This document shows positions 4,971 to 23,497 of a stretch of 33,094 nt of DNA, one piece after another. The DNA lies in contig JAMOMC010000100.1 of the NCBI GenBank assembly GCA_027068765.1, positions 1-33,094 on the forward strand, given 5' to 3'. The notes under the pieces are model-generated. The model was not told where the DNA came from. It saw nothing but the letters and a program-made list of their open reading frames with translations, and ran no database searches. Made by a program: the position numbers and the translations under genes. Numbering within the stretch: position 1 is the first letter of the stretch; every line of letters begins with the position of its first letter. The stretch is from Campylobacterales bacterium. GTDB lineage: Bacteria > Campylobacterota > Campylobacteria > Campylobacterales > QNZT01.

Positions 4971-4999
4971 TTGTAATAATTTATATTAAATATAATATA
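4971..4999 (+). promoter_or_regulatory. Candidate promoter of the desaturase operon
   Basis: TTGTAA (4971-4976) is followed after 17 bases by TAATAT (4994-4999), a plausible -35/-10 pair about 42 bases before the desaturase ATG. TATAAT at 4991-4996 is an alternative -10 with short spacing. Both -10 candidates overlap the 22-bp palindrome at 4993-5014. The region is very AT-rich, so chance matches are likely. Confidence 0.35.
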
Positions 5000-5014
5000 T
5001 TGTACAATATATTA
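4993..5014. promoter_or_regulatory. 22-bp perfect palindrome, possible operator
   Basis: Eleven bases on each side of the centre at 5003/5004 match without error. The half-site read outwards is TACAATATATT, and the two copies overlap in the central TGTACA. It covers the probable -10 and start of transcription of the desaturase operon, where a repressor dimer would block it. The same half-site forms the arms of the inverted repeat at 12031-12104. Confidence 0.6.
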
Positions 5015-5040
5015 ATTTTATTATAAGGAAGTTCCTCCAA

Positions 5041-10877: not shown

Positions 10878-11939
10878 TTATCGTATCTTTAGAGTTATTA
10901 GAGCTATTAGATTTGAGATGAGGGCTATTATCCAAAATCTTACGATTATCTTGTTTTCTGCCCAGCCTTTTAGTTCAAAATGGTGGTGAATTGGAGCCAT
11001 TTTAAAGACTCTTTTTTTACGAGCTTTATAACTTCCAACTTGTAGTATCACTGAGACAGTTTCCATAACAAAGACAAAGCCTATTAGTATCAAAAGAAGC
11101 TCATTTTTAGTGATAATTGCCATATAAGCTATAAAACCTCCAAGGGCTAAACTCCCACTATCTCCCATAAAAATTTCAGCAGGATGACAATTGTGCCACA
11201 AAAAACCGACTAAAGAGCCTACAAGTGCAGTAGCTATTATGGTGACCTCTCCAATTCCTTTGATATTTGGTAAGAGTAGATATTCACTTAAAAGTGCATG
11301 ACCCATAATATAGACAAAGATGCTTAAGCTCATGATGGAGAAAATTGAAGGGACAGTAGCTAAACCATCAAGTCCATCAGTTAGGTTTACAGCATTTGAG
11401 GTTGAGACAAATACTAAAATCCAAAAAACAATTGCTAGTATATTCATATCAAAAAGTGGATATTTATAAAATGGAATATAAAGCTCAGTCATAAAACCAC
11501 CAAAGTATAGATACAATCCGATAATAATGGAGGCTCCAATTTGTAGAAAAATCTTTTTATTTCCACTTAGCCCTGCTTCATTTTTTTTATGTAATATTTT
11601 TGCTAAATCATCTTTTATGCCAATTAGTGCAAATAAAATGATAGTTAAAATTGCACCAAGAGCTAAAAAGTTGTTATATTTTATCGTTAAAAGTGAAGCT
11701 ATGAGGGTTGAGCCTAGAAAAACTAACCCACCCATAGTTGGAGTTGTTGACTTAGCTTGGTGTGAATCTGGTGCATGTTTGTATATAGGTTGATTTGCAT
11801 TTTTAGCTTTTGCCCAAGCTATATATCTTGGCATCAAGACAAGGGTCAATATAAAAGCTGTAAAAAATGAGATACCAGCTCTTAGTGTTATGTATTGAAA
11901 AATATTTATGTCAAGAAGTTGATGAAGAAGATAGAGCAT
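10878..11939 (-). CDS. mraY: Phospho-N-acetylmuramoyl-pentapeptide transferase
   Basis: A 353-residue, about ten-helix membrane enzyme that links phospho-MurNAc-pentapeptide to undecaprenyl phosphate, giving lipid I. Family motifs are all present: PTMGGLVFL near residue 67, the Asp pair Asp110-Asp111 in [36 protein letters not shown] and the HHHFELKGW triple histidine near the C terminus. An AAGGA site precedes the ATG. It is the first gene of the mraY-murD pair. It is divergent from the polysaccharide locus, whose last gene (26740) is a distant paralog of the same superfamily that uses the same lipid carrier. Confidence 0.96.
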
Positions 11940-12030
11940 TAAAATCCTTAATTAAAAATCTTATTCTATTAAAACTTATCTTAACTGATGATAGAAGTTT
12001 TTGTATTTTGTATCATATGGTATCATTGAT

Positions 12031-12104
12031 ATTTTTATAATTTATTACAATATATTAAAATAATTATTAAAATAATTAAATATATTGTAATAAATTATAA
12101 AAAT
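12031..12104. repeat. Long AT-rich inverted repeat with 26-bp perfect arms
   Basis: Bases 12031-12056 and 12079-12104 are perfect reverse complements, with only one C or G per arm. The 22-base middle holds the direct repeat AAAATAATTATT. The inner ends of the arms are TACAATATATT, the half-site also found in the palindrome at 4993-5014. It sits in the 283-base divergent gap between mraY and the polysaccharide locus, about 65 bases upstream of a candidate promoter. It could extrude as a cruciform or bind a regulator such as a nucleoid protein. No T tract fits a terminator. Confidence 0.85.
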
Positions 12105-12166
12105 GTTCTCTTTTTTAAATATTATTTATGAAATATGGTAAAAATTAATTTATTTTAAAGTAAACC

Positions 12167-12175
12167 TGCTATATT
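12167..12175 (+). promoter_or_regulatory. Candidate promoter of the polysaccharide locus
   Basis: TGC (12167-12169) plus TATATT (12170-12175) is an extended -10 box about 48 bases before the first glycosyltransferase. There is no good -35 box, which is common for Campylobacterota. The gap 11940-12222 otherwise holds the long inverted repeat and no ORF of note. Confidence 0.45.
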
Positions 12176-12222: not shown

Positions 12223-13365
12223 ATGAAAACAATAAATTTTTTAACAGGTAATTTTATGCCAGAGAATTGTGCAGGGACAAATCGTATTTTGTCACTTGTA
12301 AAAGAGCTTGAAAAAACTTATAAAGTAAATATTTTTTGCATAACTGAGCGAGGAAAACCTCAAAAAAATCAAAAAATTGTATATAGTGACAATATTGATG
12401 TATATTATGTTGATCAGCGTTACTATGATGGTGAAAAATTTTACTCTCGGGCACTACATGAATTATATTATGCTATAAAACTAACTTTAAAAGCGAGAAA
12501 GTTTCAGTCTGATATCACAGTAGCTACATCACCACAAATGTTTATTATACCAGCTGTTGCTGTTTTTGGTTCAAGAAAATCTATCATAGATGTTCGAGAT
12601 TTGGTTTGGGAGTATATAGAAGAGACATCAGCTTATAAGAAAATTTTAAAAAATTTAATTACTCAATTTATGAAATTATCTTTGAAAAAATTTAAGTATA
12701 TAACAGTAACAAATTCTCACGAGTATCATTGGGTTGAGGAGTTTGTCTCTAAAGATAATATAGTTCAAATTACAAATGGTATAGAAAACAGTACATTTGA
12801 ACAATTGTGCAGACTTAAACATAATGAAGAGAGAGTATTTACAGTAACATACATAGGAAATGTTGGAATTGCTCAAAATATAAAAACATTGATAGATGCA
12901 GCAAGAGATGTTCAAAATATTAGGGTAAATATCATAGGTGAAGGTAATCGTTATAAGCAATTAAAAGAGTATGTTCATAAAAATAGAATTTCAAATGTGG
13001 AGTTTTTTGGTAGAGTTCAACGAGATAAAATGATTGATTTTTACCAAGAAAGCTCACTTCTTTTTGCACAACTTGATGAGACATTTAGTGCAGCTATGCC
13101 TTCAAAATTGTATGAGTATGCTTCAACGGGATTACCTATCGTCTATGCTGGATCTGGTGTTGCTAGAGATTTTGTGAATGAACTTGAAAATTCTACCACT
13201 ATAAAACCTGGTGATACAAAAGCTTTGAAGGATGCAATTTTAAAATATAGAGATTTGAAATGCACTATTTCACAAAAAAATAGAGATTTTGTGCGAAAAA
13301 ATTTTATAAGAGAGAAACAAAGTACAAAAATGGTCGATATAGTAGATAGATTAATTATGGAGTAA
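12223..13365 (+). CDS. GT4-type glycosyltransferase (WbuB-like)
   Basis: A 380-residue GT-B glycosyltransferase, first gene of the polysaccharide locus. The N-terminal acceptor domain begins with FLTGNFMPENCAGTNRI, the loop typical of WbuB-like enzymes of O-antigen loci. The C-terminal GT4 domain starts about residue 204 (TVTYIGNVGIAQNIKTLIDA) and contains AAMPSKLYEYASTGLPIVYAG near 286-306, the nucleotide-sugar binding region. It should add one sugar to the undecaprenyl-linked repeat unit on the cytoplasmic side. Donor and linkage are unknown; UDP-ManNAcA, UDP-Gal or an N-acetylated sugar are possible given the neighbours. The AAGGA site is 13 bases from the ATG, rather far. The galE gene starts 5 bases after its stop. 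Confidence 0.85.
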   Translation: MKTINFLTGNFMPENCAGTNRILSLVKELEKTYKVNIFCITERGKPQKNQKIVYSDNIDVYYVDQRYYDGEKFYSRALHELYYAIKLTLKARKFQSDITVATSPQMFIIPAVAVFGSRKSIIDVRDLVWEYIEETSAYKKILKNLITQFMKLSLKKFKYITVTNSHEYHWVEEFVSKDNIVQITNGIENSTFEQLCRLKHNEERVFTVTYIGNVGIAQNIKTLIDAARDVQNIRVNIIGEGNRYKQLKEYVHKNRISNVEFFGRVQRDKMIDFYQESSLLFAQLDETFSAAMPSKLYEYASTGLPIVYAGSGVARDFVNELENSTTIKPGDTKALKDAILKYRDLKCTISQKNRDFVRKNFIREKQSTKMVDIVDRLIME

Positions 13366-23320: not shown

Positions 23321-23371
23321 ATAGTTAAATTATTTAATAAATTTAAAGTATTTATTAATATATTTAATTAT
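23321..23371. repeat. Imperfect AT-rich inverted repeat after the lyase gene
   Basis: Arms 23321-23342 and 23350-23371 pair with one 3x3 internal mismatch and one G-T, leaving a 7-base loop. It begins five bases after the lyase stop. With only one G it would be a weak terminator. It lies in the 223-base gap 23317-23539, which has no gene. Confidence 0.55.
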
Positions 23372-23433
23372 AAAATTAACATTAAGTTGTTTACAGGTTT
23401 GTCTATAGTGACATTTTGTGTAAAAAAGTAATA

Positions 23434-23484
23434 AAATATTATTTTAGTCAATAAATATTAACAATTTATTTTAAAATAATATTT
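23434..23484. repeat. AT-rich inverted repeat upstream of the wza promoter
   Basis: AAATATTATTTTA (23434-23446) and its exact reverse complement (23472-23484) form 13-bp outer arms. Inside, AATAAAT (23450-23456) pairs with ATTTATT (23464-23470) around a 7-base loop. The right arm ends just before the candidate -10 at 23492 and covers its -35 position, so it could be an operator or bend site for the export genes. Confidence 0.6.
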
Positions 23485-23497
23485 AATATTCTATAAT
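23469..23497 (+). promoter_or_regulatory. Candidate promoter of the wza-wzc-wecA unit
   Basis: TATAAT at 23492-23497 is a perfect -10 box; the -35 position 17 bases upstream (23469-23474) reads TTTTAA, a weak match. Transcription would start near 23504, giving a leader of about 36 bases before the wza ATG, with AAAGGTAAGAG as ribosome site. Confidence 0.55.

Follow-up and report, generated by a model that had tools for sequence, protein, structure and literature searches.

The described elements that come closest to the inverted repeat analyzed here are the hairpins left by template switching, a process of replication by which one event produces stems that are perfect reverse complements and which also helps to keep them perfect (PMC8794818). 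The repeat lying upstream of mraY in this Campylobacterales genome shares with these elements (quasipalindrome correction, TSM; PMC8794818, PMC7202029) the possession of long and perfect reverse-complement arms in one lineage, and another repeat of the same genome, at locus L129, resembles them also in having one ancestral arm and a second arm that is its mirror. However, the mirror copy coincides here with a break in gene order, and the source arm of the mraY repeat was matched to no ancestral sequence. Template-switch hairpins are already known as a kind, of which this palindrome, according to the reading favored below, is an unusual example.

A second term of comparison is represented by symmetric bacterial promoters (bidirectional or pseudo-symmetrical), which can drive divergent transcription (PMC12825309). 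The likeness consists of symmetric AT-rich DNA placed between divergent genes; in contrast to these promoters, each of the two genes has here its own conserved -10 element, located at a distance of more than 60 bp from the palindrome, and the arms of the palindrome are devoid of good -10 boxes.

The inverted repeat and its uniqueness

The window, that is, the whole stretch of DNA analyzed (33,094 nucleotides), corresponds to a complete contig (C100); the genome, of 2.3 Mb, is fragmented into 211 contigs. The features relevant to the repeat are the following:

10878-11939, - strand: mraY, an ORF whose product is up to about 90% identical to congeneric MraY proteins
11963-11968, - strand: probable -10 box of mraY (TAGAAT), from alignment with congeneric and family relatives
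12031-12056, + strand: left arm, sequence ATTTTTATAATTTATTACAATATATT, perfect reverse complement of 12079-12104
12057-12078, no strand: centre of 22 nt, partly self-complementary
12079-12104, - strand: right arm, perfect reverse complement of 12031-12056
12170-12175, + strand: probable -10 region (TATATT/TATTAT) for the glycosyltransferase operon, also conserved in G001
12223-13365, + strand: group 1 glycosyltransferase, first gene of the polysaccharide locus (Pfam PF00534, E 2.4e-18)

An earlier note on this DNA had described two perfect, AT-only arms of 26 bp separated by 22 bases and not followed by a T tract. On re-examination, the coordinates, the arms and the gap proved to be exact: the palindrome is 74 bp long in total, with 26/26 positions of the arms paired around the 22-nt spacer, and it can alternatively be drawn with 35-nt arms (91% match) and a 4-nt loop. 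The term AT-only is slightly wrong, since a single G or C occurs in each arm (2 of the 74 bases; 97% A+T), whereas the absence of a T tract is true of the directly adjoining bases but not further out, where six T are found after GTTCTC (12111-12116).

The palindrome is embedded in an intergenic region of 283 bp with a G+C content of 13.8%. Arms of 26 bp were reached in none of 2000 dinucleotide-preserving shuffles of this region (maximum 21), and when only the 74 bp were shuffled, 5000 times, the longest arms measured 19; equally long arms, whose frequent appearance in shuffled sequence the earlier note had named as a reason to abandon its reading, never arose in this way. The palindrome exists, it is statistically strong, and it is no by-product of base composition.

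Like an intrinsic terminator, the element is an inverted repeat able to form a strong RNA hairpin, with a predicted fold of -29.1 kcal/mol (z = -8.7). It differs from terminators in its base composition and in its 22-nt centre, and this identity was rejected: the terminator scan at the palindrome found nothing, the stem contains one G-C pair and is not immediately followed by a run of T, and the setting is a divergent region in which no gene ends at the palindrome. The Rfam search at the same position matched no structured-RNA family.

As far as the distribution of the repeat is concerned, the search of the whole genome with the arm, proposed in the earlier note, revealed a single copy, the sole strong extra match being that of the palindrome with itself on the opposite strand. 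The two-armed pattern was found in 0/398 other genomes of the order, the arm had no match in viral contigs, and the region around the palindrome had none in plasmids. The BLAST matches with other AT-rich sites, both in this genome and in others, were weak, as AT-rich DNA would give; one of these sites, on contig C213 of G004, is an 18-bp palindrome described further below. These data bear on the idea that the palindrome might be what a small mobile element, or the ends of a transposon, left behind at a junction. Terminal inverted repeats located at a break in gene order would fit this idea, which nevertheless appears extremely unlikely and is already largely refuted by the single copy, by the plasmid and viral searches and by the flanks (left, TATCATTGAT; right, GTTCTCTTTT), in which no target-site duplication was found. 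A mobile repeat of the MITE-like type was likewise discarded, on the basis of the single copy and of the absence of flanking direct repeats.

Gene order and promoters at mraY

The gene preceding mraY in the congeners G001-G004, as well as in wider relatives, is gpmI (identified by its protein sequence), which has the divergent orientation; the gpmI/mraY site of these relatives lacks a long palindrome, the longest perfect arms measuring 6-10 bp. In the genome analyzed in this work, gpmI is located on another contig (C21:11053-12522), where its neighbors are a thioredoxin-like gene and a ligA-like gene (both named by eye from sequence), and its place beside mraY is now taken by the polysaccharide glycosyltransferase gene, which in G001 has a different upstream neighbor. 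Since gpmI lies on C21, away from mraY, the gpmI/mraY pair has been broken, and the palindrome sits at the new junction. It is specific to one lineage, being missing at the same site in the close relatives as well as from the 398 genomes. The earlier note had offered three suggestions, i.e., a cruciform, the binding of a protein, and a mark of where the polysaccharide locus was inserted. The comparison of gene orders suggests that the last one is the best supported in spirit, even though only in part: the break falls exactly there, but the event behind it may have been an insertion or another type of rearrangement.

The two promoters surrounding the palindrome are separately conserved. The -10 box of mraY, which reads TAAAAT in congeners and TAGAAT here, lies in a sequence block (TTAAGATAAATTTTACTAAAATA) conserved immediately upstream of mraY, as revealed by the alignment of the mraY upstream regions, and the region upstream of the glycosyltransferase gene matches that of G001 from about window position 12144. 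The palindrome occupies the stretch between these two regions, which matches no relative; its edges are 62 and 65 bp away from the two -10 boxes and, thus, it lies outside both core promoters.

Such a location, midway between two conserved promoters, might be that of a functional control site, which would bind a putative nucleoid or regulatory protein, or extrude a cruciform, and in this way tune both operons. This possibility, which we regard as rather unlikely, is in agreement with the enrichment of inverted repeats reported for E. coli promoter regions (PMC6060812) and with the finding that both of the longest palindromes of the sampled genome fall within divergent intergenic regions. The weight of the latter finding is limited, since divergent regions account for about 31% of the sampled intergenic bases (a count relying on a simple ORF heuristic for gene calls) and two palindromes out of two in such regions are therefore not significant. 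Usual operator dyads are far shorter than 74 bp with 26-bp perfect arms, which also counts against a control site. Moreover, the two long palindromes have no sequence in common, and the comparison of the mraY upstream region with that of relatives, also proposed in the earlier note, revealed that the palindrome is missing there although the congeners keep the mraY core promoter. A conserved operator was rejected, since the arm recurs neither elsewhere in the genome, nor in the 398 genomes, nor in the orthologous mraY promoters; for the same reasons, the suggested binding site of a regulatory protein is unsupported in its conserved version. As judged from these comparisons, conservation gives no support to a dedicated function of the palindrome. 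The formation of a cruciform is physically plausible. Indeed, the region between two divergent promoters experiences negative supercoiling when both of them fire, so that the extrusion of a putative cruciform, or a mild effect on expression, might be possible at this position.

A second long palindrome in the same genome

The inverted-repeat scan covered about 1.16 Mb, i.e., about half of the genome, and in this sample just one other perfect repeat of at least 20 bp was found (L129 17683-17749, on contig C9). It is AT-rich, with 25-bp arms and a 17-bp centre, and it is flanked by divergent genes for ppk1 and an aldehyde dehydrogenase (named by eye from sequence). In shuffled intergenic regions, a score of 18 or more was never reached in 12 rounds.

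Also in this case the gene order differs from that of relatives: ppk1 adjoins uvrB in G004, G010 and G002, whereas here uvrB is found on contig C32, its end being followed by a deformylase-like gene. The left arm aligns with the uvrB-ppk1 junction of the relatives, and the aligned part comprises a stretch free of variation over the stop of uvrB; exactly where the relatives run on into uvrB, the genome analyzed here carries the mirror copy of this arm. Each arm bears an outward-facing TTTGCTATAATAA, an extended -10; the left copy matches the region upstream of ppk1 in relatives, and the mirrored one points at the aldehyde dehydrogenase gene. This is the pattern that a fold-back template switch would be expected to leave.

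The outward-facing boxes of L129, one of which is shared with the relatives, and the existence of symmetric promoters for divergent transcription (PMC12825309) might also suggest that the palindrome upstream of mraY is a mirrored divergent promoter, in which a single promoter, duplicated so as to place an outward -10 box in each arm, would serve both genes. For the window palindrome, however, this appears very unlikely: its arms contain only weak outward -10-like hexamers (such as TATAAA), the number of promoter-like sites in the region is near that given by chance, and a conserved promoter already lies nearer to each gene.

The occurrence of both long palindromes at gene-order breaks relative to the relatives, in an assembly made up of 211 contigs, also raises the question of a chimeric join. 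We consider such an assembly artefact highly improbable because each of the two breaks finds support at its other side, where gpmI has a new neighbor on C21 and uvrB one on C32; in addition, the palindromes are located inside contigs of 33 kb and 51 kb, and the flanking genes have congeneric relatives.

Other palindromes, shorter or imperfect, were observed in the same material. In the window, a spacerless one with 23-nt arms (87%) lies at 4981-5026, between divergent genes for a di-haem cytochrome c peroxidase and a fatty-acid desaturase, and shares ACAATATATTAA with the 12031 element; two AT-rich imperfect palindromes (23321-23371 and 23431-23487) are located between heparinase-like and polysaccharide export genes. 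Elsewhere in the genome, an imperfect 23-nt palindrome with a 15-nt spacer (L217:7108-7168, on contig C75; AT 95%) carries an outward TATAAT in both arms and lies in a region containing restriction-modification-like and phage-repressor-like genes, and three successive imperfect inverted repeats, with arms of up to 38 nt, occur near the start of contig C36 (L164:166-531), possibly as a structured RNA. In the congener G004, an 18-bp perfect AT palindrome (L029:2499-2548, on contig C213) lies between divergent genes for a TAXI-type transporter and a MoxR-type ATPase.

Origin and possible meaning of the palindrome

The size, the AT-richness, the perfection, the uniqueness and the position at a break, all of which the window element shares with the L129 repeat, lead us to lean, with modest confidence, towards a lineage-specific fold-back (template-switch) scar, made at or after the rearrangement. 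According to this model, the ancestral gpmI/mraY neighborhood would have been broken and mraY joined to the polysaccharide locus; at that break, or during a later replication of the new AT-rich junction, the copying strand may have switched template within a small hairpin, so that about 26 or more bases would have been copied back on themselves, giving rise to two perfectly complementary arms. Repeated template switching might then keep the arms perfect. In its present state, the palindrome would be a hairpin or cruciform spacer, neutral or of mild effect, that separates the two divergent promoters and lies outside both cores. What the data show is the repeat itself, its uniqueness, the break in gene order and a location between two promoter regions that are separately conserved; that a template switch took place, when it did so, and that the palindrome has no dedicated function is what we infer.

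Two points affect the strength of this model. The alignments of the mraY and glycosyltransferase upstream regions gave no ancestral match for either arm of the window palindrome, so that the direction of copying there remains a proposal. Furthermore, since gene order is perhaps often shuffled in this group, the fact that both palindromes fall at a breakpoint is no more than suggestive and carries no p-value.

It is tempting to extend the fold-back model to these AT-rich Campylobacterota genomes in general. Fold-back copying might regularly seal or follow the junctions made by rearrangement, a recent rearrangement would be recognizable by its scar, a perfect palindrome of about 25 bp, and the promoter region of the surviving gene might be mirrored onto its new neighbor, thus providing newly joined divergent genes with a ready-made promoter or hairpin. 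In this general form the idea is unlikely, and we advance it as a speculation. If the scar reading of the window palindrome is true, long perfect palindromes in AT-rich genomes would flag recent breaks in gene order and record the repair route. The element at L129 suggests that one fold-back event can copy a promoter toward a new gene, and, in the case of the window element, the scar reading would account for a conspicuous motif with no need of an unknown regulator.
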